Below, piece after piece: positions 48,541 to 60,471 of a stretch of DNA of 64,000 nucleotides. Under the pieces are notes generated by a model. That model ran no database searches. It had not been told where the DNA came from and saw only the letters and a program-made list of their open reading frames with translations. The DNA comes from Micromonospora kangleipakensis. GTDB taxonomy: Bacteria; Actinomycetota; Actinomycetes; Mycobacteriales; Micromonosporaceae. Positions within the stretch are counted from its first letter, which is position 1; every line of letters begins with the position of its first letter. The translations under genes were made by a program, and so were the position numbers. The stretch is from assembly GCF_004217615.1 (NCBI RefSeq), contig NZ_SHLD01000001.1:5394001-5458000 (forward strand). Reading direction: 5' to 3'.

Positions 48541-49233
48541 TCAGGGCTCCGGGCAGCGGTCGGAGAGGGCGTACCGGGTCAGCACCACGTCGTCGATCTG
48601 GCGGACCTCCAGTACCCGGGCGCGCCGGCCCGGGTGCCAGGGGAATCGGCCGTCACCGACGAAGCGCGGCGCCCGGCCGTCGCCGACGAAGAACGGCGCG
48701 ACCACCAGGTGCAGCTCGTCGGCGAGGCCGGCGCTGAGGAACTGGGCGTGCACGGCGCCGCCGCCCTCGACCATCAGCCGGCGTACGCCCCGGGCGGCCA
48801 GGTCGGCCAGCACCGCGCCCGGGCCGGCCGGCTCGCCGGCGTCGACCACGGTCGCCACCCCGCCCAGCCGCTCCCGGGTCTTCTCCAGCGCGCCGCTCGG
48901 GCAGTACACCAGCTTGGTCGCCTCGCCCATGGCGAAAAAGCGGGCCGTCGGGTCGAGGTCCCCGCTGGCGGTGACCGTGACCTTTACCGGGGACGGCGGC
49001 AGGCCCCGGGCCACCCGCTCGGCCCGGCGCCGGTCGGAGCGCACCAGCAGCCGCGGGTCGTCCAGCCGGACGGTGTTCGCGCCGACCATGATGGCGTCGC
49101 AGCCGGCCCGGACCGCGTCGATCCGGTCCAGGTCGTCGGCGTTGGAGAGCAGCAGCCGCTCGGCCGAGGCGTCGTCGATGTACCCGTCGATCGACATCGC
49201 GCAGCTGAGCAGCACGTACGGCCGGCCGGTCAC
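48541..49233 (-). CDS. RibD C-terminal-domain pyrimidine reductase (dihydrofolate-reductase-like)
   Basis: The 230-residue protein has the RibD reductase fold: SCAMSIDGYIDDAS near 9-22, RAGCDAIMVGANTVRLDDPRL near 42-62 (substrate site) and RRLMVEGGGAVHAQFLSAGL near 155-174 (NADPH loop). In riboflavin synthesis this domain reduces the ribose of a GTP-derived pyrimidine to ribityl. No deaminase domain is fused or adjacent. Its GTG overlaps the stop of the upstream cyclohydrolase gene by 4 bp, so the two probably act in sequence. It is the last gene of the seven-gene operon. Confidence 0.87.
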   Translation of the reverse strand: MTGRPYVLLSCAMSIDGYIDDASAERLLLSNADDLDRIDAVRAGCDAIMVGANTVRLDDPRLLVRSDRRRAERVARGLPPSPVKVTVTASGDLDPTARFFAMGEATKLVYCPSGALEKTRERLGGVATVVDAGEPAGPGAVLADLAARGVRRLMVEGGGAVHAQFLSAGLADELHLVVAPFFVGDGRAPRFVGDGRFPWHPGRRARVLEVRQIDDVVLTRYALSDRCPEP

Positions 49234-49883
49234 GGCACGAACGGGAGGTCGAGGGCGTGGTCGCCGCGGCTGACCTTCGCCGCCAGGTAGCCGGCGTTGG
49301 CCGGAGAGAGGTGCACGCCCGTCGGCATCCGCTCGGCCACCGTCACGCCGAGCCGGTCGAGCTGGTCGGCCTTGTCCGGGTTGTTGCTGAGCAGGGCGAC
49401 CCGGGCCACGCCCAGCGCGGCCAGCATCTGCGCGGCCGCCGTGTAGTCGCGCTCGTCCGCGCCCCGACCCAGCGCCAGGTTCGCCTCGTACGTGTCCAGG
49501 CCGGCGTCCTGCAGGGCGTACGCGTCGAGCTTGGCGTACAGGCCGATGCCGCGCCCCTCCTGGCGCAGGTAGAGCAGGAAGCCGTCGGCCTCGGCGATGC
49601 GCTCGACCGCCTCCCGCAGCTGCGGGCCGCAGTCGCAACGCTGGCTGCCGAAGACGTCCCCGGTCAGGCACTCGCTGTGTGGCCGGACCAGGGGCGGCGG
49701 CCCACCGGTGGCCTGTCCGTCCACGGTCGACGCCCAGTCACCGAGGCCGAACGCGAGATGTTCCCGGCCGTCCGCCAGGCCGTCGAACGAGAAGACCCGG
49801 GCGGTCGTGACGTACCCGTCGGGGAACCGCAGGGGGACCGTGACCTGGTTCCGGACCGTCGCCACCGGCAGCGCTTCGTCCAT
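49230..49883 (-). CDS. ribA: GTP cyclohydrolase II
   Basis: The 217-residue zinc enzyme opens GTP to a diaminopyrimidine with loss of formate and pyrophosphate. Zinc ligands Cys72, Cys83 and Cys85 lie in HSECLTGD and SQRCDCG, and YLRQEGRGIGL (105-115) is the GTP site. Tyr122 in KLDAYALQD occupies the position that in S. coelicolor SCO6655 is Met and diverts the product to the formylamino compound; here the canonical Tyr predicts the normal product. No DHBP-synthase domain is fused, so this is a stand-alone second copy. GAGGAG precedes the ATG. Confidence 0.92.
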   Translation of the reverse strand: MDEALPVATVRNQVTVPLRFPDGYVTTARVFSFDGLADGREHLAFGLGDWASTVDGQATGGPPPLVRPHSECLTGDVFGSQRCDCGPQLREAVERIAEADGFLLYLRQEGRGIGLYAKLDAYALQDAGLDTYEANLALGRGADERDYTAAAQMLAALGVARVALLSNNPDKADQLDRLGVTVAERMPTGVHLSPANAGYLAAKVSRGDHALDLPFVP

Positions 49884-49949
49884 TGCTCTCCTCCGTCCGG
49901 CGCGGCCGGACGCGCCGGCAGCGCATACCAAGGTCCAGGGTAGGCGCGG

Positions 49950-50960
49950 TCAGCGGTCGGTGCTGGCCGCCGTGGTCCGGAACCGGCGCACCACCAGCAC
50001 GGCCGCGCCGGGCAGGCTCGCGACGAGCACCAGCGCGCCGTACACCATGGCGGCGGCGACGCCCTGCGCGGCGGTCAGGCCGGCGGCGGCGAAGGCCCAC
50101 GCGGCGACCCCCTCGCGCGGGCCGAACCCGCCGACGTTGGCCGGCAGCCCCATCGCCAGCAGGGCCAGCAACGTCAGCGGCACCAGCCGGGACAGCGGCG
50201 CGTCGGCGCCCGCGGTGCGCGCCGCGACCACGAAGGTGGCCAGGTGGCCGGCGACCACCACGGCGGAGGCGACCACCACGCCCACCCAGGTGCGCCGGGC
50301 GAGCAGGCCGGACCGGACGTCAGCCACCGCGGTGCGCAGCGCCCGCCCCCACCTGGACGCGCCGGAGCGGGGCGCCGCCCGGGCGAGCAGGGCCAGGCCC
50401 AGCCCGGCGACGAGCAGCGCGCCGGTCACCGCCGGCAGGTACGGCCGGACCGGCGAGGGCAGCGCCGCCAGCACCGCCACGGCGATGACGAGCTGGACGA
50501 CCTGTCCGGCGGTGCGTTCCCAGACCACCGCGCGGATGCCCCGGCTGACATCGCCGGCGTCCCGGCCGTGCCGCACCGCGCGGTGCACGTCGCCCAGCAC
50601 CCCGCCGGGGAGGGTCGAGTTGAGGAAGACCGCGCGGTAGCAGTGCGCCACCGCGGCGCCCATCGGCAGCCGCACGCCGAGGCCGCCCGCGACCAGCGCC
50701 CACCGCCAGGCGCAGCAGACGGTGGTGACCAGGCCGATGGCGAGGGCTGCGGCGAGCGCCGGGCCGTCGATCAGCCGCAGCCCGTCGAGGAACGGGCCGG
50801 TGCCCACCCACCAGACCAGGGCGGCGAGCACCCCGAGCCCACCGAGCGTGCGGACCCAGGCCCACGGCGACCGGGCCGCGGGGCTCGCCGCCGGCGCGGC
50901 CGGGGACGCTGCGGTCACCACCGGGGGTACGACGGGCGCGGCGATGGTCGCGTGCGACAA
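49950..50960 (-). CDS. Lysylphosphatidylglycerol-synthase-like (flippase-like) membrane protein
   Basis: The 336-residue protein has about eight transmembrane helices and the family motifs NSTLPGGVLGDVHRA near 127 and ANVGGFGPREGVAAW near 275 of the LPG_synthase_TM / AglD-like group. Members act as flippases or glycosyl/aminoacyl-lipid transferases; no soluble aminoacyl-transferase domain is fused, so simple flipping or lipid handling is likelier. The TTG start at 50960 follows AGGGAGG. It is in the middle of the operon, 50 bp after the methyltransferase gene. Confidence 0.8.
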   Translation of the reverse strand: MSHATIAAPVVPPVVTAASPAAPAASPAARSPWAWVRTLGGLGVLAALVWWVGTGPFLDGLRLIDGPALAAALAIGLVTTVCCAWRWALVAGGLGVRLPMGAAVAHCYRAVFLNSTLPGGVLGDVHRAVRHGRDAGDVSRGIRAVVWERTAGQVVQLVIAVAVLAALPSPVRPYLPAVTGALLVAGLGLALLARAAPRSGASRWGRALRTAVADVRSGLLARRTWVGVVVASAVVVAGHLATFVVAARTAGADAPLSRLVPLTLLALLAMGLPANVGGFGPREGVAAWAFAAAGLTAAQGVAAAMVYGALVLVASLPGAAVLVVRRFRTTAASTDR

Positions 50961-51010
50961 GCGGTCCTCCCTCAGTCCACCTGGTGTCACGTACGGCGGG
51001 GCGGTCCGGT

Positions 51011-51826
51011 TCACCCGCCGGCCAGCAGGTCGGCATGGTGCAGCAGCACCCGCAGCCGGCCCTGGGCCGCCTCGGCCAGCCTCCGCCGCCGGTACCCCCC
51101 GGCCGGGGCGGCCAGCTCCGGCCGCTGCTCGACGGCCGCGTCGAGCCAGCCGGCCAACCACTCGGCGGTCAGCGCCGCCTGCTCCGGGCCGAGCCGCCAC
51201 GGGCTGGGCCGCACCAGCACCTCGATCCCCCGCCGGGTGAACGCCGCCCGGGTGGCCTCGACCGCGTCCGGCCCGAGCAGGGCGCGGCCGTCGACGGTAC
51301 GGCGCTGGTGCGCGTCGAACGCCGCAGCGAACTCCGCGTCCAGCGGGTCGGCCGGGGTGAACTCGACCCGGCCGACCACGGTGAGCATGAACAGCGTGGG
51401 GTGCCCGGCGCAGGCCGCCACCACCCGCTCGACCTCCTCGGCGGTGAGCATGTCCAGCAGCGCCGACGCGGTGACCAGGCCGGCGCCGGCGAGGTCCGCG
51501 GCGGTCAGCCGGGTGATGTCGGCGCGCCGGGTCTCGACGGTGACCGGGCTGCCGTCGGCGGCGGCGTCGACCAGGTCGGCGGCGGCCCGGTCCAGCAGGC
51601 CGGCGTCCCGGTCGTACAGGATCCAGTGCTGCGGCCCGGAAAGCAGCGGCGCCAGCCAGCGCCCCATCGAGCCGGTCCCGGTGCCCAGGTCGTGCACGAC
51701 CAGCGGCCGGTCACCGGCCAGCCGGCGGCGGACCACGTCGACCAGTCCGGTGGCGCGGGCCGCGGCGTCGGCGGGCTCGCGCAGCCGCAGCCAGTCCGCG
51801 AAGTCGGGCGGGAGTGGGGTGGTCAT
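51011..51826 (-). CDS. Class I SAM-dependent methyltransferase
   Basis: The 271-residue protein has motif I VVHDLGTGTGSMGRWL near residues 42-57, an acidic loop YDRDAGLLD near 70 and ALLDMLTAEEVERVV near 115. It methylates an unknown small molecule, perhaps the pterin, pyrimidine or glycosyl intermediate of this operon. Its ATG overlaps the upstream glycosyltransferase stop by 4 bp. Confidence 0.83.
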   Translation of the reverse strand: MTTPLPPDFADWLRLREPADAAARATGLVDVVRRRLAGDRPLVVHDLGTGTGSMGRWLAPLLSGPQHWILYDRDAGLLDRAAADLVDAAADGSPVTVETRRADITRLTAADLAGAGLVTASALLDMLTAEEVERVVAACAGHPTLFMLTVVGRVEFTPADPLDAEFAAAFDAHQRRTVDGRALLGPDAVEATRAAFTRRGIEVLVRPSPWRLGPEQAALTAEWLAGWLDAAVEQRPELAAPAGGYRRRRLAEAAQGRLRVLLHHADLLAGG

Positions 51827-52860
51827 GCCGCCGTCGCCTCCTTCAGTACGGCCGCCAGGCGGGTCGAGGTGACCGCCCAGTCGGTGAGGGTGTCCCGCCG
51901 GTCCCGGGCGGAGCGGCGCAGCCGGGCCCGCAGCGCGGGGTCGGTGAGCCAGCGGCGGAGCGCGCCGGCCAGCGCGTCCGGGTCGTCGGGCGGCACGAGC
52001 AGGCCGGGCCGGCTGCCGTCAGGGGCGCGCCCGAGCGCCTCGGGCAGCCCGCCGACCTCGGTGCCCAGCACCGGTACGCCCCGGGCCAACGCCTCGGTGA
52101 CCACCATCCCGTACGTCTCCCCCCGCGAGGCGAGCACCAGCAGGTCGGCGCGGGCGTACGCGTCGTGCAGGGCCGCGCCGGTGCGGGCGCCGACCAGGCG
52201 GACCCGGCCGGTGAGTTCGGCGCCGGTGAGCTGCCCGCGCAGCCGGTCGACGAAGTCGGGATCCCGGGTCAGCGCGCCCACGCAGTCGCAGGTCCAGGGC
52301 AGGTCGGCGACCGCGGCCAGCGCCGCGGCGAGCACGTCGTGACCCTTGTGCGCGGTGACCGCCGCGACGCAGAGCAGCGCCGAGCCGGCCGCCGAGCCGG
52401 TGGCCGGCGGCGCCGGGTCGACCCCGGGCGGGGCCGCCCGGACCCGGTCGGCGGGCAGGGCGTACCGGTCGAGCAGCCGGCGGCGGGTCCACTCGCTGGT
52501 GGTGACCACGGCGGTGGCGGCGGCCAGTGCCTCGGCCTCGGCGTCGGTCTCCAGCGGCAGGTGTACGAGCACCACCAGGCGCAGCCGGCGGGCCTGCGGC
52601 GCCAGCACCTCCGGCACGGTCGAGGCGACGAGTCCGTCGAGCAGCACCAGCGCGCGGTCGGGCACCCCCGCGAGCACCCCGGCGAGGGCGGCCCGCTCCC
52701 CCGCCCCCGGTCGCGGCCAGCCGCCGGGCACGGGATGCTCCCGGACGGTCCAGCCGGCCGCGGCGAGTCCCCGGCAGACCCGGCGGTCGTAGCCGTTGCC
52801 GCCGCTGGGGGTGGCCGGATCGTCGATGTCGCCCGGCAGCACCACGTGCACCGTGGTCAT
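51823..52860 (-). CDS. GT4-family glycosyltransferase
   Basis: The 345-residue protein has the GT-B fold: PSGGNGYDRRVCRGL near the N-terminus, LLCVAAVTAHKGHDVLAAAL near 160 and the retaining-enzyme motif RGETYGMVVTEALARGVPVL (E-x7-E) near 255-275 that binds the nucleotide-sugar diphosphate. It transfers a sugar to an unknown acceptor. Operon neighbours make a lipid-linked or pterin-linked glycoside plausible. Confidence 0.87.
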   Translation of the reverse strand: MTTVHVVLPGDIDDPATPSGGNGYDRRVCRGLAAAGWTVREHPVPGGWPRPGAGERAALAGVLAGVPDRALVLLDGLVASTVPEVLAPQARRLRLVVLVHLPLETDAEAEALAAATAVVTTSEWTRRRLLDRYALPADRVRAAPPGVDPAPPATGSAAGSALLCVAAVTAHKGHDVLAAALAAVADLPWTCDCVGALTRDPDFVDRLRGQLTGAELTGRVRLVGARTGAALHDAYARADLLVLASRGETYGMVVTEALARGVPVLGTEVGGLPEALGRAPDGSRPGLLVPPDDPDALAGALRRWLTDPALRARLRRSARDRRDTLTDWAVTSTRLAAVLKEATAA

Positions 52861-52863
52861 CCG

Positions 52864-53262
52864 CTACAGCGGCCGCTCGTAGCTGGCCCAGGCGACGTGC
52901 GACTCGTGCAGGGTGACGGTGATGCCGGCCAGGCCGCGCGCGCCGTCGCCGAGCCGGCCGGCGTGCATCCGCTCGGCGAGCCGGTCGGCGACCGTGCGGG
53001 CCAGCACCTCGGTGGTGGTGTTCACCCCGGCGAAGTCGGGCTCGTCGTCCAGGTTGCGGTAGGTCAGCTCGGCCAGGACGGCCTTGAGCTGCTCGGTCGC
53101 CAGGCCGATGTCGACGACGATCCCGTCGGCGTCGAGGTCGGGGCGGCGGAAGGTGGCGTCGACGACGAAGGTGGCGCCGTGCAGCCGCTGGGCGGGCCCG
53201 AAGACCTCGCCGGTGAAGCTGTGGGCGACCATCATGTGGTCACGGACGGTCACGCTGAACAC
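52864..53262 (-). CDS. 6-pyruvoyltetrahydropterin synthase/QueD homologue lacking usual catalytic residues
   Basis: The 132-residue protein keeps the T-fold layout of PTPS/Que[12 protein letters not shown] with His14, RLHGATFVV with His28, [20 protein letters not shown] and [15 protein letters not shown]. However, residue 24 is Ala where the catalytic Cys belongs (PAQRLHGA against CxRLHGH), residue 30 is Ala where the third zinc-binding His belongs, and the LDH triad residues read LTY. A related protein in S. coelicolor (SCO6650) has been studied. The reaction here is therefore unknown. It lies 3 bp from both neighbours in the operon. Confidence 0.85.
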
Positions 53263-53265
53263 GGA

Positions 53266-54243
53266 TCACTCCCCGTCGTAGGTGATGAGGTGGCAGAGCG
53301 CGGGCAGCCGGCCCGTGCGCAGTCGGTCGAGCACGTCGGGCAGCTCCGCGAAGCGGGACCGGCCGGTGAGCAGCGCGTCGAAGGTCGGCTCGGCGAGCAG
53401 GTCCAGGGCCAGCGCCAGCCGGTCGCGGTAGCTCCGGTCGGCCCGCCGCGGCGACACCGTACCCACCTGGCTGCTCCGGATGCGCAGTCGTCGCGAGTGG
53501 AACGCCCCGCCGAGCGAGAGTGTGACCGGGCGGTCGCCGTACCAGCTCAGCTCCAGCACGGTGCCCTCGGGGCGGAGCAGCTCCAGCGAGCGTTGCAGGC
53601 CGGCGGCGCTGGCGCTGGCGTGCACCACCAGGTCCCGTCCGGCGGCGGCGTCGGCGGGGAGGGCGAAGTCGATGCCGAGCGCGGCGGCCACCGCGGCCCG
53701 CGCGGGGTCGGCGTCGACCAGCTCGGTCCGTACCCCGGGGAAGCGGGCCAGCAGGGCGGCGACGCAGCAGCCGACCATGCCGCCGCCGATCACGGTGACC
53801 CGGTCGCCGACCAGCGGCGCGGCGTCCCAGAGCGCGTTCACCGCGGTCTCCACCGTGCCGGCCAGCACCGCCCGGGCCGCCGGCACCCCCTCCGGTACGA
53901 CCACCACCGCGTCGGCCGGCACGACGTACGCGGTCTGGTGCGGATAGAGGCAGAAGACGGTCCGCCCGCGCAGCGCGTCGGGCCCCTCCTCGACCTCTCC
54001 GACGCTGAGGTAGCCGTACTTCACCGGGGCCGGGAAGTCGCCCTCCTGGAACGGGGCGCGCATGGTGGCGTACTGGTCGGCGGGGACCCGGCCGGCGAAG
54101 ACCAGGGTCTCGGTGCCCCGGCTGACGCCCGAGTAGCGGGTGCGGACGAGAACCTCGTCGGGGCCGGGGGCGGGGAGGGTCACCGACCGGATCTCGCCCT
54201 CGCCGGGGGCGCGGAGCCAGAAGGCGCGGGCGTCGCGGGTCAC
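53266..54243 (-). CDS. Medium-chain (zinc-type) dehydrogenase/reductase
   Basis: The 325-residue MDR protein has the GroES-like domain with VRTRYSGVSRGTETLVFAG near 31-49, in which the catalytic-zinc Cys of classic alcohol dehydrogenases is Ser, and a Rossmann domain with VTVIGGGMVGCCVAALL near 145-161. It resembles the BchC-like branch. It is the first gene of the minus-strand operon; its GTG start is 91 bp from the divergent phosphatidyltransferase. Substrate unknown. Confidence 0.83.
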   Translation of the reverse strand: MTRDARAFWLRAPGEGEIRSVTLPAPGPDEVLVRTRYSGVSRGTETLVFAGRVPADQYATMRAPFQEGDFPAPVKYGYLSVGEVEEGPDALRGRTVFCLYPHQTAYVVPADAVVVVPEGVPAARAVLAGTVETAVNALWDAAPLVGDRVTVIGGGMVGCCVAALLARFPGVRTELVDADPARAAVAAALGIDFALPADAAAGRDLVVHASASAAGLQRSLELLRPEGTVLELSWYGDRPVTLSLGGAFHSRRLRIRSSQVGTVSPRRADRSYRDRLALALDLLAEPTFDALLTGRSRFAELPDVLDRLRTGRLPALCHLITYDGE

Positions 54244-54334
54244 GAATTTCCCTCTTTCCGCATCCGGACCGAACCGGACGGCCGTATTTCCCGTGTTGAG
54301 TGGCAGGGTTGTCGATCATAGACACGGAGGCAGG

Positions 54335-55225
54335 GTGTCCACGGTTCGAAATGGCCCGGTACTCGGGCTGATCGCCCAGTTCGTCCTGCTGGCGGGGCTG
54401 GCCGGCACGGTCGGCCTCGGCGCGGCGGGCTGGCTGGCCGGCCTCGCGTACGGTGCGACCCTGTGCGGCCTGCTGCTGCGCGGCCTGCGGGCGGCCGGGG
54501 CGGACGCGCTCGGCCCGGCGGACCGGGTGACCCTGACCCGGGCGGTCCTGGTCGGCGGCGTGCTGGCCCTGACGGTGGACGCCTGGTCGCGGCCGGCGCC
54601 GGTGGCGGTGCTGGTCCCGCTCACCGCCGTGGCGTTGGCGCTCGACGCGGTCGACGGCCGGGTGGCCCGACGCACCGGGACCGCGAGCGATCTCGGCGCG
54701 CGGTTCGACATGGAGGTCGACGCGTTCCTGATCCTGGTGCTCAGCGTCCACCTGGCGCCGGCCGTCGGCGGCTGGGTGCTGGTCATCGGCGGGATGCGGT
54801 ACGCCTTCGTGGTCGCGAGCTGGCTGCTGCCCTGGATGCGCGGCACGCTGCCGCTGCGGTACTGGCGCAAGGTGGTCGCGGCCGCGCAGGGCGTCGTGCT
54901 GGCCGTCGCGTCCGCCGGCACCCTGCCCCGGGCCGCGACGACCGTGCTGGTGGCGGGCGCGCTGGCGATGCTGGTCGAGTCGTTCGGCCACGACGTCGCC
55001 TGGCTGTGGCGGCACCGCCCCGCCGCCGTCCCCGTCCCGCAGGTCACCGTCCCGGTTCCGCACGTGACCGTGCCGCACGTGCCCGTCCGGCACGTCACCG
55101 TCCGGCACGTGACCGTCCGGCACGTCACCGTTCCGCGCGCCATGCGGGTCACCGTCACCCGCGCCACGCACGCCGCCACCGGCGAGCCGGCCGCGGCCCG
55201 GTGGACGGCCCACCAGCCGGTCTGA
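54335..55225 (+). CDS. CDP-alcohol phosphatidyltransferase
   Basis: The 296-residue membrane enzyme joins a CDP-activated group to an alcohol. The full signature is present: DAVDGRVAR followed by RTGTASDLGARFDMEVD (D-x2-DG-x2-AR-x8-G-x3-D-x3-D, near 108-133). Six or so helices span 10-220. The C-terminal 65 residues are a soluble tail of repeated V-R/P-H-V-T units. GGAGG lies 4 nt before the GTG start. Divergent from the dehydrogenase operon and followed by the sulfatase gene, it may build the lipid part of the same product. Confidence 0.87.
   Translation: MSTVRNGPVLGLIAQFVLLAGLAGTVGLGAAGWLAGLAYGATLCGLLLRGLRAAGADALGPADRVTLTRAVLVGGVLALTVDAWSRPAPVAVLVPLTAVALALDAVDGRVARRTGTASDLGARFDMEVDAFLILVLSVHLAPAVGGWVLVIGGMRYAFVVASWLLPWMRGTLPLRYWRKVVAAAQGVVLAVASAGTLPRAATTVLVAGALAMLVESFGHDVAWLWRHRPAAVPVPQVTVPVPHVTVPHVPVRHVTVRHVTVRHVTVPRAMRVTVTRATHAATGEPAAARWTAHQPV
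55028..55129 (+). repeat. In-frame tandem repeat in the phosphatidyltransferase gene
   Basis: Three 15-bp units GTCCGGCACGTSACC (55085-55099, 55100-55114, 55115-55129) encode VRHVT and follow four degenerate VP(V/H/Q)-type units from 55028. The copies are nearly identical, so the tract can expand or shrink by replication slippage without changing frame. Confidence 0.8.
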
Positions 55226-55276
55226 GCCGACCGCCACGACAGCCCGCACGGCGGACACCGCAGGGAAGGACCGAGA

Positions 55277-56980
55277 TTGTCACTCTTCACGCGCTTCCGC
55301 CGACCGGCAGTGACACCGGCGGACGACGACGGCGCCCCCTCGACGGTGGTCGCAACCCGGGGCCGCCGCGTCGTGGCGGGCGCCCTCACCGGGCTCGCCG
55401 CGGTGCTGGTGCTGGCCGCGCTCGTGGCGCCGGACCAGTTGGGCCGGCTCCGGCCCGGCGCGTTCCTGCGGATCCCGGTGGAGGCGCTGGTCGCCGTCGC
55501 GCTGCTGCTCGTCCTGCCGGCCCGGGCCCGCCGGCCGGTGGCCGTGGCGCTCGGTCTGGCGCTCGGCCTGCTGACCGTGCTCAAGCTGCTCGACATGGGC
55601 TTCTTCGTGGCCCGCGACCGGCCGTTCGACGTGCTGCTCGACTGGGGACTCTTCGACGACGGCTTCGGCTTCCTCACCGACTCGGTCGGCCGGGGCGGCG
55701 CGGTCGCCGCGGCGGCCGGGGTGCTGCTCCTCGCCGCCGCGCTGTTCGTCCTGCTCACCCTGTCGGTGCTGCGGCTGACCCGGCTGATGGTCCGGCACCG
55801 CCCCGCCACGGTCCGCGCCGTCGCGGCGCTGGCCGTGCTCTGGCTGGGCTGCGCCGTGTTCGGGGTGCGGCTCGCCCCCGGCGTGCCGGTCGCGGACCGG
55901 GCGGCGACCACGCTGGTCGCGGCGCACGCCGGCCAGGTGCGGGCCGGCCTCCACGACCGGGAGGCATTCGCCGGCGAGGCGGCCACCGACGCCTTCCGGG
56001 ACGTCCCCGGCGACCGGCTGCTGACCGGGCTGCGCGGCAAGGACGTGCTGGTCGCGTTCGTGGAGAGCTACGGCCGGGACGCGGTCGAGGACCCGGAGTT
56101 CGCCCCGCAGGTCGACGCGGTGCTCGACGACGGCTACCGCCGGCTGCGGGCGGCCGGGTACGACGCCCGCAGCGGCTTCCTCACCTCCCCCACCTTCGGC
56201 GGCGGGAGCTGGCTGGCCCACGCCACGCTGCTCTCCGGGCTCTGGATCGACAACGACCAGCGCCACCGGGACCTGTTGGCCGGGGACCGGCTGACCCTCA
56301 ACGGCGCGTTCCACCGGGCCGGATGGCAGACGGTGGGTGTCATGCCGGCGGCCACCCAGCCCTGGCCGGAGGGGAAGTTCTTCGGCTACGACCGCTACTA
56401 CGACGCCGAGAAGCTGGCCTACCGCGGCCCGAAGTTCAGCTACGCGCCGATGCCCGACCAGTACACCCTCGCCACCTTCCAGCGGCTGGAGCGGGACCGG
56501 CCGCACGCCCCGCTGATGGCGGAGATCCCGCTGGTCTCCAGCCACTCCCCCTGGTCGGCCATCCCGAAGCCGGTCGGCTGGGACGCGGTCGGCGACGGCT
56601 CGATCTTCCACGACGCCGCCACCAGCACGGGCGGCAGCCGGGACGTGGTGCAGCGCGACGCCACGCAGATCCGCGCCGACTACCGGCGTTCCATCGAGTA
56701 CACGCTCGACACCCTGGTCTCCTACGTGCTGACGTACGGCGGGGACGACCTGGTGCTGGTCTTCCTCGGCGACCACCAGCCGGCCGCGGCGGTCACCGGT
56801 GAGGGCGCCAGCCGGGACGTGCCGATCACCGTGGTGGCGCACGACCCGAAGATGTTCGACCGGATCGCCGGCTGGGGCTGGCAGGACGGGCTGCGGCCCG
56901 GGCCGCGGGCCCCGGTGTGGCGGATGGACACCTTCCGGGACCGCTTCCTCACCGCGTTCGGCCCGCAGGGCGCCCGGTGA
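55277..56980 (+). CDS. Membrane-anchored sulfatase/phosphoglycerol-transferase-like protein
   Basis: The 567-residue protein has an N-terminal membrane part of about four helices (36-60, 72-112, 130-160, 175-195) and an extracytoplasmic alkaline-phosphatase-fold domain. Metal-site marks are VAFVESYGRD near 258, the nucleophile region GGGSWLAHATLLSGLW near 305-320 and LGDHQPAAA near 500. LtaS-type enzymes with this layout transfer glycerol phosphate to or from surface polymers. The TTG start follows GGAAGGACCGAGA. It is 51 bp downstream of the phosphatidyltransferase and probably co-transcribed. Confidence 0.82.
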   Translation: MSLFTRFRRPAVTPADDDGAPSTVVATRGRRVVAGALTGLAAVLVLAALVAPDQLGRLRPGAFLRIPVEALVAVALLLVLPARARRPVAVALGLALGLLTVLKLLDMGFFVARDRPFDVLLDWGLFDDGFGFLTDSVGRGGAVAAAAGVLLLAAALFVLLTLSVLRLTRLMVRHRPATVRAVAALAVLWLGCAVFGVRLAPGVPVADRAATTLVAAHAGQVRAGLHDREAFAGEAATDAFRDVPGDRLLTGLRGKDVLVAFVESYGRDAVEDPEFAPQVDAVLDDGYRRLRAAGYDARSGFLTSPTFGGGSWLAHATLLSGLWIDNDQRHRDLLAGDRLTLNGAFHRAGWQTVGVMPAATQPWPEGKFFGYDRYYDAEKLAYRGPKFSYAPMPDQYTLATFQRLERDRPHAPLMAEIPLVSSHSPWSAIPKPVGWDAVGDGSIFHDAATSTGGSRDVVQRDATQIRADYRRSIEYTLDTLVSYVLTYGGDDLVLVFLGDHQPAAAVTGEGASRDVPITVVAHDPKMFDRIAGWGWQDGLRPGPRAPVWRMDTFRDRFLTAFGPQGAR

Positions 56981-57401: not shown

Positions 57402-58463
57402 TCACGCCGGGTAGGCGTGCGTCTCGGCGGCCTTGACCGCCGCCCAGACCGGCTGGCCGGGGACGAGCCGCAGGTGGGCCGCCGCGGCGGGGGTGACGTC
57501 CGCGGCGACCGTGATCGGGCCGTCGAGCTGGACCCGCAGGTTGTCGCCGTGCCGCTGCACCCCGCCGACGGTGGCCGGCCAGACGTTGCGGGGGCTGCCG
57601 TCGGGTCGGGCCGGGTGCAGGGCGACCGCGGCGGGCGGGAAGGCGACGAAGGCATCCCCGACGACCCGGTCCGCCGCGGTGAGGGTCAGCTCGCCGACCT
57701 GGACGGTGTGCCCGTCGGCGCGGCCGCGGTGCAGGTTGAGCCCGACCAGCCGGGCCACGTAGTCGGTGCGCGGCCGGGCGGTGACGCTGGCCGCGTCGCC
57801 CTCCTGGACGACCCGCCCGTGCTCGACGATGAGCAGCCGGTCGGCGAGCACGAAGGCGTCCAGCGGGTCGTGGGTGACCAGCAGCGTCGCGCCGGAGTGG
57901 CCGCCGAGGTGCCGCTGGAGCTCGGCCCGGGTGTCCAGCCGGGTGCCCGCGTCCAGGGCGGCGAGCGGCTCGTCGAGCAGCAGCAGGGTCGGGTCGACGG
58001 CGAGCGCCCGGGCGAGGGCGACCCGCTGGGCCTGCCCACCGGAGAGCTGCCGGGGCCGGCGGCGGGCCTGCTCGCCGAGGCCGACCCGGGCCAGCCAGCC
58101 CTGCGCCCGGTCGCGCGCGGCCCGCCGGTCGGCGCCGTGCCGGCGGGGGCCGAACGCGACGTTGTCCAGCGCGCTGAGGTGCGGAAAGAGCAGGTAGTCC
58201 TGGAACACGACGCCCACCGGGCGCCGCTCGGGCGGAACCCAGCGCCGCCGGTCGGGGCGGTCGAGGTCGACACCGCCGAGGGTGAGGTGGCCGGCGGTGA
58301 GCGGGTGCAGGCCGGCCAGCGCCCGCAGCGCGGTGGTCTTGCCGGCGCCGTTCGGGCCGAGCAGCGCGACGACCTCGCCGGCGGCGATCCGCAGCCGGAC
58401 GTCGAGGTGGAAGGCGCCCCGGTCGGCGACCAGGTGCGCGTCCAGCAGGGGCGGGGCGGTCAC
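57402..58463 (-). CDS. modC: Molybdate ABC transporter ATP-binding protein
   Basis: The 353-residue ATPase has Walker A GPNGAGKTTALRAL near 37, signature LSGGQAQRVALARAL near 138, Walker B LLLLDEPLAALD near 160, and a C-terminal TOBE (Mop-like) domain near 290-350 that senses oxyanion. Operon context gives the substrate. Its GTG overlaps the modB stop by 4 bp. Confidence 0.92.
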   Translation of the reverse strand: MTAPPLLDAHLVADRGAFHLDVRLRIAAGEVVALLGPNGAGKTTALRALAGLHPLTAGHLTLGGVDLDRPDRRRWVPPERRPVGVVFQDYLLFPHLSALDNVAFGPRRHGADRRAARDRAQGWLARVGLGEQARRRPRQLSGGQAQRVALARALAVDPTLLLLDEPLAALDAGTRLDTRAELQRHLGGHSGATLLVTHDPLDAFVLADRLLIVEHGRVVQEGDAASVTARPRTDYVARLVGLNLHRGRADGHTVQVGELTLTAADRVVGDAFVAFPPAAVALHPARPDGSPRNVWPATVGGVQRHGDNLRVQLDGPITVAADVTPAAAAHLRLVPGQPVWAAVKAAETHAYPA

Positions 58464-59290
58464 GGGGCGCCGACCCAGCGGTCCCGCAGCCCGGCCAGGA
58501 TGGCGACGGAGACGGCGAGCAGGATGAGGCTGAGCACGATCGCGGCCGGCAGGTCGGTCTCCAGGGCGAGGTAGACGGCGAGCGGCATGGTCTGCGTCCG
58601 GCCGGGATAGTTGCCGGCGAAGGTGATGGTGGCGCCGAACTCGCCGAGGGCCCGCGCCCAGCAGAGCACCGCCCCGGCGGCGATGCCGGGGGCGACCAGC
58701 GGCAGGGTGACGTGGGTGAACGTGATCCAGCGGCCGGCGCCGAGGGTGGCGGCGGCCTCCTCGTAGCGCGGGTCCGCGCCGCGCAGCGCGCCCTCGACGG
58801 CGATGACCAGGAACGGCATGGCGACGAACGCCTCGGCGAGCACCACCCCGGTGGTGGTGAACGGCAGGGTCACCCCGAAGGTGGCGTCCAGCCAGGAGCC
58901 GAGCAGCCCGCGGCGGCCGAACACCAGCAGCAGCGCCACCCCGCCGACCACCGGGGGCAGCACCAACGGGACGGTGACCAGTGCCCGGACCAGGCGTCGG
59001 CCGGGGAACTCGACCCGGGCCAGCAGCCACGCCAGGGGCACGCCGAGGACGACGCAGAGCAGCGTGGCGAGGGTGGCGGTCTGCAGGGAGAGCCGCAGCG
59101 CGGTGAGGACGCCGGGCTGGGCCAGCCGCTGCGGCAGGGTGGTCCACGGGGCGCGGGCGAGCAGCCCGACCAGCGGCAGGACGAGGAAGAGCAGCCCGAG
59201 CCCGGCGGGCAGGAGCAGCGCGAGGGGCACCCGGCGCCGGGGCCGCCGCATCGGGCGGGCCGCCGGAGCGGCGGTGTCGCGGGCCGGCAC
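58460..59290 (-). CDS. modB: Molybdate ABC transporter permease
   Basis: The 276-residue inner-membrane protein has about six helices and the ATPase-docking loop YEEAAATLGAGRWITFTHVT near 183-202, with CWARALGEFGATITFAGN, characteristic of ModB. The GTG at 59290 is adjacent to the modA stop (59291-59293), a tight junction. It forms the channel of the importer with modC. Confidence 0.92.
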   Translation of the reverse strand: MPARDTAAPAARPMRRPRRRVPLALLLPAGLGLLFLVLPLVGLLARAPWTTLPQRLAQPGVLTALRLSLQTATLATLLCVVLGVPLAWLLARVEFPGRRLVRALVTVPLVLPPVVGGVALLLVFGRRGLLGSWLDATFGVTLPFTTTGVVLAEAFVAMPFLVIAVEGALRGADPRYEEAAATLGAGRWITFTHVTLPLVAPGIAAGAVLCWARALGEFGATITFAGNYPGRTQTMPLAVYLALETDLPAAIVLSLILLAVSVAILAGLRDRWVGAP

Positions 59291-60073
59291 CTACGCCTGC
59301 GGGGGCTGGAATCCGGCGGCGGTGAGCACCGCCCGGCCGGCGTCGGAACGGACGTGGTCGACGAAGGCGCGGGCCGCGGCCGGGTCGCCCGCCCGCTTGA
59401 GCACGACGATCGGGTAGTCGTTGATCGCGCGCGCCGACTCGGCGAACTCGACCGCGTCCACGTCGGACCCGGCGGCGCGGGCGTCGGTGCGGTAGACCAG
59501 CGCGGCGTCGACCTCGCCGAGCTTCAGCTTGGCCAGCGCGCTCTTGACGTCCTGCTCCAGGGTGGCGGGGGTGAACCGGGCGCCGGCCGCGCCGAGCGCC
59601 GTGCGCGCCGCCGCCCCGCACGGCACCTGCTCGGCGCACTGCGCGACCTTCACCCCGGGCCGGGTCAGGTCGGCCAGGCCGCTGATCCCCCGGGGGTTGC
59701 CCCGGGGCACCGCGATGACGAGCTGGTTGCGGGCGAGGGTGACCGGGCTCTCCGCGGCCTCGCCGGCGTCGGTCACGGTCCGCATGGTCGCGGGTGAGGC
59801 GGCGGCGAAGACGTCGGCCGGGGCGCCCTGGGTGATCTGGTTGGCCAGCGCCGAGCTGCCGGCGAAGTTGAAGGTCACCGTCGTACCGGGGTGGGCGGCC
59901 TCGAAGTCCCGGCCGAGCCGGGTGAACGTCTCGGTCAGCGAGGCGGCGGCGAAGACGGTGACCCGCCCGCCGCCGGCCTTTCCGGCGGGCGCGCCGCCGC
60001 CGCCGCAGCCGGCCAGGCCGAGGGTCAGCGCGGCCACTCCGGCGAGGGCGGCACGGATCCACCGTACGGTCAC
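59291..60073 (-). CDS. modA: Molybdate-binding lipoprotein
   Basis: The 260-residue lipoprotein (lipobox LAGC, Cys23) captures molybdate or tungstate outside the cell. VTVFAAASLTETFTRLG near 38-54 and FNFAGSSALANQI near 70 are the usual oxyanion-contact strands, PADVFAAASP and VYRTDARAAGSDV follow. The GTG overlaps the regulator stop. Predicted to feed molybdopterin enzymes such as the one at 23.7-25.0 kb. Confidence 0.92.
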   Translation of the reverse strand: MTVRWIRAALAGVAALTLGLAGCGGGGAPAGKAGGGRVTVFAAASLTETFTRLGRDFEAAHPGTTVTFNFAGSSALANQITQGAPADVFAAASPATMRTVTDAGEAAESPVTLARNQLVIAVPRGNPRGISGLADLTRPGVKVAQCAEQVPCGAAARTALGAAGARFTPATLEQDVKSALAKLKLGEVDAALVYRTDARAAGSDVDAVEFAESARAINDYPIVVLKRAGDPAAARAFVDHVRSDAGRAVLTAAGFQPPQA

Positions 60074-60471
60074 GGGGTGGTCCTTCCCTTGGGCGCGGTG
60101 GCGCGTTCCACCACGACGGTCGTCGACTTGATCACGGCCACCGCCACCGACCCGACCGCCAGGTCGAGGTCGTCGACGGCCTCGCGGCTCATCAGCGACA
60201 CGATGCGGAACGGCCCGGCCTGGATGTCGACCTGCGCCATCACCGTGTCCTTGACGACCGCGGTGACGATCCCGCGCAGCCGGTTGCGGGCGGACGACAG
60301 CTCCGGGTGCCCCGGGGCGCGGACGAACGCGGCCAGGTCGACGCCGTCGATCACCCGGTGACCGTGGTCGTCCCGGCTGGCGGCCAGCCGGCCGGCGTCG
60401 ATCCAGCGGCGGACCGTGTCGGGGCTGACCCCGAGCAGTTCGGCGGCCTCGCCGATCCGGAACACCGTCAC
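60070..60471 (-). CDS. Molybdate-responsive regulator, MerR-like HTH fused to a TOBE/Mop domain
   Basis: The 133-residue protein joins an excisionase/MerR-type helix-turn-helix (RIGEAAELLGVSPDTVRRWI, residues 5-24) to a single molbindin/TOBE domain (SSARNRLRGIVTAVVKDTVM, then AVIKSTTVVVER). It is a compact one-component equivalent of ModE: the TOBE part would bind molybdate and the HTH the mod promoter. It overlaps modA by 4 bp and is first in the operon. TAGGGT sits 6 nt before its GTG. Confidence 0.88.
   Translation of the reverse strand: MTVFRIGEAAELLGVSPDTVRRWIDAGRLAASRDDHGHRVIDGVDLAAFVRAPGHPELSSARNRLRGIVTAVVKDTVMAQVDIQAGPFRIVSLMSREAVDDLDLAVGSVAVAVIKSTTVVVERATAPKGRTTP

Follow-up and report, generated by a model that had tools for sequence, protein, structure and literature searches.

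The cluster described here resembles parts of four known systems. In archaea, reduction of the ribosyl chain precedes deamination. BrbF of Sinorhizobium belongs to the creatininase family, and its FAPy deformylase activity has been measured (PMC9478397). With the route of ArfB (archaea) and BrbF (Sinorhizobium and Brucella) the cluster would share GTP ring opening, deformylation by a creatininase-family protein and then reduction of the ribosyl chain. It differs in that the predicted ring opener is not GTP cyclohydrolase (GCH) III but a GCH II that has lost its active-site tyrosine, that riboflavin-type genes are also present elsewhere in the genome, and that the cluster continues to glycosyl- and phosphatidyl-transferases. 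Furthermore, Spoonamore and Bandarian reportedly found that SCO6655 of Streptomyces coelicolor yields only FAPy owing to a methionine, and that SCO6650 is without zinc and PTPS activity. The PTPS-like protein of our cluster is close to SCO6650, and the locus-tag numbers SCO6650 and SCO6655 agree with the gene order; unlike SCO6655, however, the GCH II of Micromonospora kangleipakensis retains the tyrosine and lacks a creatininase partner. Pterin glycosides such as cyanopterin and limipterin, from cyanobacteria and Chlorobium, presumably also depend on a glycosyltransferase acting after PTPS-fold chemistry, but their routes begin at GCH I and are not known to involve phospholipid enzymes. Finally, lipoteichoic acid synthesis (PgsA, LtaP/LtaS) and the EptA/MCR enzymes have in common with the cluster a CDP-alcohol transferase and an LtaS-fold transferase, which here share one open frame in seven loci and are tied to a GTP-pyrimidine pathway; the sequence similarity is weak. 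New here are a swap between the active-site tyrosine of GCH II and a creatininase-family gene, an archaeal-like RibD reductase in nearly every cluster genome, three types of gene fusion and an LtaS-like gene that is nearly confined to genomes with the cluster.

Layout and conservation of the gene cluster

The window, a stretch of 64,000 nucleotides from M. kangleipakensis, contains nine genes at positions 48541-56980, seven on the minus and two on the plus strand, where the earlier note had placed them. The families it had named were broadly right: Pfam backs RibD_C, GTP_cyclohydro2, LPG_synthase_TM, methyltransferase, GT4, PTPS and CDP-OH_P_transf, but the MDR dehydrogenase matches ADH_zinc_N below the cut-off and for what had been called an LtaS-like sulfatase neither Pfam nor NCBIfam gives a match at the cut-offs applied. 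The genes are tightly spaced as described, while the overlap pattern is present in part. On the minus strand, 4-bp overlaps join the GT4 and methyltransferase (MT) genes and the GCH II and RibD genes; the remaining junctions are gaps, of 3 bp for MDR/PTPS and PTPS/GT4 and of 50 and 66 bp on the two sides of the LPG_synthase_TM gene.

The PTPS-like gene was found in 58 of 394 genomes drawn from the class, belonging to 25 of the 137 genera drawn. Of 102 distinct loci flanked on each side by 8 kb or more (well-flanked loci), 88 keep together the genes for MDR dehydrogenase, PTPS-like protein, GT4, MT, LPG_synthase_TM protein and CDP-alcohol transferase; their linkage therefore exceeds chance, and it is old. 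In 70 of these 88, the commonest form, the gene order shows plain conservation, a point that we counted against the pathway proposed below. GT4 is present in all 102 well-flanked loci and MT in 96. The most conserved unit is MDR-PTPS-GT4, the only part kept, without membrane genes, in three distant loci (L128, L129 and L131), where MT and LPG_synthase_TM are absent. In these counts L096 is excluded, as it is the same locus as L077 (Thermomonospora echinospora), and additional neighbours were accepted only if confirmed by Pfam or tblastn.

We looked for independent scattering of the genes in relatives and did not find it. The genes of the two strands co-occur: the gene for the CDP-alcohol transferase lies with the others in 93 of the 102 well-flanked loci, and the LtaS-like gene occurs in 39 of the 58 cluster genomes as compared to 1 of the 336 others (Fisher tests on such genome counts ignore relatedness). 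The nine genes do not form a constant set: the LtaS-like and RibD genes are often unlinked, and MT and LPG_synthase_TM are missing in some distant relatives. The full nine are present in 27 of 137 loci, laid out in seven different ways. Elsewhere a tenth component, the creatininase-family gene, accompanies GCH II enzymes that lost the tyrosine. It is absent from the M. kangleipakensis locus, and a search of that genome found none.

Fusions in one open frame were observed for GCH II-RibD in seven loci and for the CDP-alcohol transferase and LtaS-like protein in the seven mentioned above (one of each checked by Pfam), and for GT4-MT in L132 (checked by Pfam). A PTPS-GT4 fusion in L130 was not confirmed by an in-frame test, and an apparent GT4-MT fusion in L034, which lies where a contig ends and has a gap of 223 bases, was not counted.

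Predicted GTP ring opening and reduction

The cluster GCH II (49230..49883, minus strand; PDB match 2bz0) has the PF00925 domain (185.6 bits) and, in the motif KLDAYALQD, Tyr122, which we take to align with the active-site Tyr105 of the E. coli enzyme. It falls in a clade apart from the other GCH II of the same genome, a 694-residue open frame, probably RibBA, at 3.41 Mb and at most 3 kb from a RibD_C gene. A dedicated GCH II is not obligatory, because 7 of 14 genomes searched, chosen for little or no GCH II in the locus, show a single one. In L180 a GCH II of the Micromonospora-type clade carries a fused acyl-CoA dehydrogenase domain.

In Streptomyces and relatives the tyrosine of the cluster enzyme is replaced by Met, His, Leu, Cys or Gln and a creatininase-family gene is present in the cluster. 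The position was scored in 114 distinct loci, 24 further loci holding no GCH II. The tyrosine is kept in 46 loci, none of which has the creatininase gene in the locus itself, whereas 66 of the 68 loci with another residue have it. In one of the two misses (L114) the gene lies just beyond the cut piece; L040 has a GCH II with Ser and no cluster-type creatininase. Rugosimonospora keeps the tyrosine, yet has a stand-alone creatininase copy that is 71% alike. A tree of PTPS, MDR and GT4 from 104 of 113 loci, in which L114 was set by hand as creatininase-present and long-branch rows (L130, L132 and L133 above all) are unsafely placed, gave three changes of the tyrosine state and two of the creatininase gene, two of them joint; there were three independent pairs (sign test p 0.5). 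Statistical proof of the swap was thus not reached, the sign test requiring at least six independent swaps. A third case of the swap, L039, lies outside the tree.

From its sequence, the creatininase-family protein of the Streptomyces-type cluster, predicted to be SCO6654 in S. coelicolor, is probably a FAPy deformylase. It matches PF02633 with 216 bits, and E34, H36, D45, H115 and E165, which we assume to be metal ligands, are invariant in nine sequences. Against the NCBIfam ArfB equivalog it reached 36.3 bits, below the cut-off of 180; we therefore do not file it as ArfB but propose an ArfB-like action. The cut-offs of the NCBIfam models for MftE (138 of 172 bits) and creatininase (95 of 235) were likewise missed. 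Identity with MftE of mycofactocin synthesis was rejected: six cluster proteins scored 128-142 against the cut-off of 172, and three MftE proteins taken from cluster genomes of the Tyr type scored 277-309.

The RibD-type reductase (48541..49233, minus strand) has RibD_C as its sole domain (143.7 bits) and no deaminase domain. Its nearest NCBIfam model is TIGR01508, the archaeal 2,5-diamino-6-ribosylamino-pyrimidinone 5'-phosphate reductase (130.9 bits, below the cut-off of 186.45). In the PDB ranking, 5xux ('Conserved protein'), presumably an archaeal enzyme, and 6p8c precede bacterial RibD. This archaeal-like type, linked or unlinked, is found in nearly every cluster genome: where the locus lacks the Micromonospora-type gene (25 genomes), 23 have a stand-alone homologue that is 53-67% alike and the remaining two a divergent one inside the cluster. 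The creatininase and RibD types are not exclusive to the cluster, because they also occur in 10 and 50, respectively, of the 336 genomes without it.

The first two steps of a pathway are predicted with good support from the sequences. The cluster GCH II would open GTP; in the Tyr form of Micromonospora, this one enzyme is predicted to give 2,5-diamino-6-ribosylamino-4(3H)-pyrimidinone 5'-phosphate, whereas the Tyr-less form of the Streptomyces type would stop at the formylated FAPy nucleotide, from which the creatininase-family protein would take off the formyl group. The RibD-type reductase would then convert the ribosyl into a ribityl chain with the 2-amino group kept, yielding 2,5-diamino-6-ribitylamino-pyrimidinone phosphate. 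The swap would account for the reported half-way stop of one S. coelicolor GCH II, and the Tyr-less GCH II is a candidate for the bacterial enzyme that opens the ring ahead of a formamidase. According to the authors of the BrbF study, a partner of this kind still awaits discovery (PMC9478397).

Proposed remodelling and membrane enzymes

The MDR dehydrogenase (53266..54243, minus strand; ADH_zinc_N 26.4 bits, cut-off 31.8) reaches 52.8 bits against NCBIfam bchC (cut-off 291). Its PDB matches cover the coenzyme part of alcohol dehydrogenase and its N-terminal half has no invariant Cys; by sequence, it is probably a distantly BchC-like enzyme without catalytic zinc. The PTPS/QueD-fold protein (52864..53262, minus strand; Pfam PTPS 84 bits) is closely homologous to SCO6650 (PDB 3d7j, phmmer E 3.5e-67). 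In the alignment, with the zinc-histidine and catalytic cysteine positions that we assume for E. coli QueD, the HxH pair is HGA and the cysteine is Ala, while two His and Glu120 are kept. The protein is therefore classed as a T-fold homologue and not as a PTPS. Next to it lie the GT4 glycosyltransferase (51823..52860, minus strand; PF00534 91 bits) and the class I SAM methyltransferase (51011..51826, minus strand; PF13649 28 bits, cut-off 27).

The flippase-like LPG_synthase_TM membrane protein (49950..50960, minus strand, start codon uncertain) matches PF03706 with 100 bits. For the CDP-alcohol phosphatidyltransferase (54335..55225, plus strand; CDP-OH_P_transf 40 bits) the nearest solved fold is PgsA, followed by PIP synthases and PSS. 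It contains D-x2-D-G-x2-A-R-x8-G-x3-D-x3-D, which we take to be the motif of this family, and these residues are invariant in alignments of 10 and of 35 sequences. PgsA and the PIP synthases use phosphorylated polyols as acceptors, an observation that we counted for the pathway.

The last gene (55277..56980, plus strand) encodes a putative phospholipid-headgroup transferase of LtaS/EptA-like type, which has helices at its N terminus. No match was obtained in Pfam (E 0.01) or NCBIfam (E 0.001). A profile of the family found only LtaP (PDB 4uop, E 8e-4), and Foldseek ranked LtaP first for the predicted fold (E 7e-7), with MCR-1 and LtaS next; GacH also matched. The model has a mean pLDDT of 68 and TM values of 0.34-0.45, and residues 306-339, which include the candidate residues S311 and T317, are mostly below pLDDT 50. 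E263, S311, T317, H423, D499 and H500 are invariant in both alignments of the family. The candidate headgroup enzyme pair shares a single open frame in several families.

A proposed pathway and its alternatives

Taken together, we favour, with a probability of roughly 55%, a dedicated biosynthetic route diverging upstream of riboflavin: GTP would be converted to the ribitylamino-pyrimidinone phosphate, which would be remodelled, glycosylated, methylated and given to phospholipid-headgroup enzymes. The odd neighbour genes would thereby become an ordered chemistry, with predicted substrates for the first three enzymes. In the third step the MDR dehydrogenase may oxidise a hydroxyl of the ribityl chain while the PTPS-fold protein grips the pyrimidine through a conserved Glu. 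Should the oxidation fall on C2', the resulting ketone would be the GCH I intermediate and ring closure would give dihydroneopterin phosphate; the two proteins would then constitute a second pterin route that bypasses GCH I. GT4 would glycosylate and the methyltransferase methylate the product. Of the pathway in the earlier note, the GTP-derived pyrimidine precursor is likely, and the pterin product and the attachment to lipid are parts that we continue to infer. The pathway is kept across at least 25 actinomycete genera, and no published product was found in the open-licence literature, in which most subscription papers are missing.

At the membrane end of the favoured pathway, the PgsA-like transferase would couple a phospho-polyol to CDP-diacylglycerol, the LPG_synthase_TM protein would aid the crossing of the membrane by the lipid, and the LtaS-like enzyme would pass the phospho-headgroup to an acceptor outside. 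More tentatively, we suggest a class of actinomycete envelope phospholipid, or a wall decoration, with a glycosylated, methylated ribityl-diaminopyrimidine or pterin from GTP as the headgroup, redox- and light-active, anchored outside the cell and produced chiefly during the sporulation of aerial hyphae; the phospho-polyol would in this case be ribityl phosphate. It appears rather doubtful to us that the cluster makes a glycosylated pterin or pyrimidine that is soluble and secreted, similar to the pterin glycosides of cyanobacteria, with membrane proteins serving export only and the two plus-strand genes belonging to general lipid metabolism nearby. This reading would fit the three distant loci in which the most conserved unit stands without membrane genes, the 19 of 58 cluster genomes in which the LtaS-like gene was sought and not found, and the seven of 47 compared loci that contain an open frame related to an MFS transporter, identified by Pfam in L106; indeed, because of these 19 genomes and three loci, the membrane end is not obligatory. 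Against it stand the frequent linkage of the CDP-alcohol transferase and the distribution of the LtaS-like gene: this gene tracks the cluster even where unlinked (39 of its 40 carriers are cluster genomes). That same distribution, following the GTP-pyrimidine cluster, argues against the plus-strand pair being a phosphatidylglycerol synthase and a glycerophosphate transferase that either decorates the glycoside or builds a polymer resembling lipoteichoic acid, without any joining of the pyrimidine itself to diacylglycerol; we consider this unlikely. A spare riboflavin (or folate) supply beside unrelated envelope genes is very improbable and was rejected although GCH II and RibD are both of riboflavin families, since the genome has the second GCH II/RibD_C pair at 3.41 Mb, none of the nine genes is by Pfam a lumazine or riboflavin synthase (RibH, RibE), RibB or a deaminase, as in a standard riboflavin operon, and the same partner genes adjoin GCH II-RibD pairs that belong to different clades of GCH II.

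With regard to the timing of the favoured pathway, we infer from gene order that the methyltransferase is the orthologue of SCO6652. In S. coelicolor, SCO6652 is reported to rise about 17-20 fold at 48 and 72 h in solid culture (PMC3610822), which indicates when to look. The two strands are separated by a divergent intergenic region of 91 bp (54244..54334). Using promoter consensus patterns as we assume them to be, WhiG, SigB-like and BldD-like matches in the divergent region were not above those in shuffles. A WhiA-like pattern gave 42 as compared to 34.8 in shuffles, and GGAAC-N14-18-[CG]GT in 27 of 95 divergent regions as compared to 7.4 in mononucleotide shuffles.

The gene set and its linkage

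In the window (G000:C1:5394001-5458000, 64 kb of a single-contig genome of 7.27 Mb), seven minus-strand genes are transcribed in the order MDR dehydrogenase (53266-54243), PTPS/QueD-fold protein (PTPS-like, 52864-53262), GT4 (51823-52860), methyltransferase (51011-51826), LPG_synthase_TM membrane protein (LPG-TM, 49950-50960), GTP cyclohydrolase II (GCH II, 49230-49883) and RibD_C-type reductase (RibD-like, 48541-49233). On the plus strand, the CDP-alcohol transferase gene (54335-55225) lies 91 bp from the MDR start and is followed by an LtaS-like gene (55277-56980). The families named in the earlier note were confirmed for the set with Pfam and NCBIfam, except that MDR stayed below the Pfam cut-off and the LtaS-like protein met no family model in either collection. 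By profile the latter resembles LtaP (4uop, E 8e-4); its fold matches LtaP, MCR-1, LtaS and GacH, to be taken with care as the predicted model has a mean pLDDT of 68. In the divergent region (54244-54334 and its counterparts) the pattern GGAAC-N14-18-[CG]GT, which resembles an ECF-sigma promoter, is present in 27 of the 95 loci compared, versus 7.4 in simple shuffles. Beyond the LtaS-like gene, translations read by eye indicate the components of a molybdate-type ABC transporter together with a small HTH-plus-Mop protein (57402-60471, minus strand).

Conservation was surveyed with the PTPS-like protein as query. At least 530 stretches in named genomes encode a relative, and the best 80 of these were taken as loci. 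Among 394 genomes drawn from the class, 58 are carriers (25 of 137 genera), one of them, G051, at E 2e-11 only; this draw gave 58 loci cut from 57 carrier genomes, two from G009, with the window representing its own genome. L096 duplicates L077 and was left out, leaving 137 distinct loci. GT4 is present in 137 of these, MDR in 135, LPG-TM in 125, the methyltransferase in 123, the CDP-alcohol transferase in 118, GCH II in 113, a creatininase-like gene in 67, RibD in 62 and LtaS in 40. The cluster observed in the earlier note was correctly recognized, and its linkage is stronger than could then be known. Of the 102 loci flanked by 8 kb or more on each side, 88 keep MDR, PTPS-like, GT4, methyltransferase, LPG-TM and CDP-alcohol transferase together (70 in window order, 13 with the CDP-alcohol transferase inverted, 5 otherwise). 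Co-occurrence of all nine genes holds for 27 of the 137 loci; 19 of the 27 follow the window order and 8 show six other arrangements, including L110, L111, L113 and L126 from other families. Much of the gene-order conservation is common descent; the sets that are rearranged yet remain linked argue for a common function.

What survives in L128, L129 and L131, which are among the most distant loci, is the MDR-PTPS-GT4 unit, and G009 has two such units on different contigs (L100, L101). A Pseudonocardia MAG has the set divided between two places, the second holding LtaS, GCH II, creatininase, methyltransferase and CDP-alcohol transferase. Only one LtaS-like gene, G239:C1:2217495-2219141, turned up outside the genomes in which a PTPS-like gene was detected; perhaps the rest of the cluster was lost or diverged in this lineage.

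A creatininase-family gene and the GCH II tyrosine

Streptomyces, Amycolatopsis, Actinomadura and others carry an additional creatininase-family gene inside the cluster (PF02633, 216 bits in Pfam), most commonly between LPG-TM and GCH II and facing them; the window's genome has none. GCH II was aligned from 114 distinct loci, window included (in 24 more the cut piece held no GCH II), and scored at the position which we take to be the active-site Tyr105 of E. coli. Tyr is found in 46 of the 114, none of which has a creatininase in the locus. The other 68 carry Met (48), His (11), Leu (6), Cys, Gln or Ser (one each), and 66 of them have the creatininase. Of the two exceptions, L114 carries it beyond the cut piece, at a distance of about 13 kb from the PTPS gene, and L040 (Ser) comes from a genome whose only creatininase is 37% alike. 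Conversely, Rugosimonospora has Tyr in its cluster GCH II and a lone creatininase copy, 71% alike, elsewhere. On the PTPS+MDR+GT4 tree the creatininase state changes twice and the Tyr state three times. A third joint case, outside the tree, is Actinacidiphila glaucinigra, which has a Tyr GCH II away from the cluster, RibD within it and no creatininase of the cluster type in the genome. The pattern is neat, and the evolutionary events are few. Five different residues replace Tyr where the creatininase is present, as would be expected had this site become dispensable.

The S. coelicolor GCH II, SCO6655, reportedly yields the formylated GCH II product (FAPy nucleotide) as its only product, since Met replaces Tyr. 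According to PMC9478397, Sinorhizobium BrbF, of the creatininase family, takes formate off the FAPy nucleotide, and the authors of that paper regard a GTP cyclohydrolase partner as yet to be discovered. Taken together with the Tyr/creatininase swap, this makes the tenth gene a candidate deformylase, probably serving a GCH II that no longer carries out the second half of its reaction.

The reductase and the predicted pathway

In loci not of Micromonospora type the RibD-like gene frequently lies outside the cluster. Among the 25 creatininase-type genomes searched, a homologue 53-67% alike lies elsewhere in the genome in 23; the remaining two, G173 and G182, carry a divergent RibD inside the cluster (L149, L148). 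In the class draw, a match at E 1e-40 was found in 48 of 58 cluster genomes versus 50 of 336 others. Ten cluster genomes miss it: in six of these the cluster itself includes a RibD-type gene (L130, L132, L141, L146, L148, L149), and three have only a 38-39% RibD-type gene near another GCH II; in the last, G362, no RibD-type gene was seen. Judged from this distribution, the reductase is a fixed part of the predicted pathway. It lacks a deaminase domain in Pfam, and its best NCBIfam model, scoring below the cut-off, is an archaeal reductase; the 2-amino group is therefore probably kept.

The early chemistry of the cluster, a GTP-derived pyrimidine or pterin route in the earlier note, is now specific: GTP is predicted to be converted to a 2,5-diamino ribityl-pyrimidine phosphate, either with the help of a separate deformylase or without one. 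In the alignment the PTPS-like protein keeps His14, His28, Asp72 and Glu120 and has Ala at what we take to be the catalytic Cys and the third zinc His of QueD, and is therefore expected to hold a pterin- or pyrimidine-like ring without performing PTPS chemistry. In MDR no Cys is invariant across the N-terminal half of the alignment, and the protein weakly resembles BchC (NCBIfam). From chemistry alone, oxidation of the ribityl C2' would recreate the GCH I intermediate and lead to a pterin. The extra methyltransferases in clusters of other families (L101:7937-8779, minus; L101:7059-7997, minus, a weak match; L107:12530-13228, plus) suggest that decoration may vary between lineages.

Fusions, GCH II recruitment and S. 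coelicolor counterparts

Fusions of the kind seen here usually link consecutive steps. GCH II and RibD share one open frame in seven of 46 same-strand neighbour pairs (L040, L042, L048, L068, L130, L132, L133), CDP-alcohol transferase and LtaS-like in seven of 32 (L099, L101, L102, L107, L111, L122, L125), and GT4 and methyltransferase in L132. Pfam found both fusion domains in L048 and L132 (the methyltransferase part below the cut-off); in the 769-residue frame of L107 it found the CDP-alcohol domain, the LtaS-like part having no model, as in the window. In the GCH II tree the Micromonospora-type Tyr clade has a support of 100, the non-Tyr clade 82 and the RibD-fused Pseudonocardia/L133 group 99; the deep branches are poorly supported, with L130 and L132 placed among RibBA-like rows. 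Two genomes of one distant family have a Micromonospora-type GCH II in long frames (L208:11810-13687, plus, 626 aa; L209:8369-10285, minus, 639 aa); the remainder of the L208 frame, which alone was scanned, is an acyl-CoA dehydrogenase (Pfam).

In S. coelicolor, the PTPS-like gene corresponds to SCO6650 (PDB 3d7j), and SCO6655 is a GCH II according to PMC2853524. The four tags between them fit GT4, methyltransferase, LPG-TM and creatininase, the order found in 39 loci, and on these tag numbers SCO6652 would be the methyltransferase. In a table of PMC3610822, solid cultures aged 24, 48 and 72 h give SCO6652 log2 values of 0.8, 4.3 and 4.1 relative to young mycelium.
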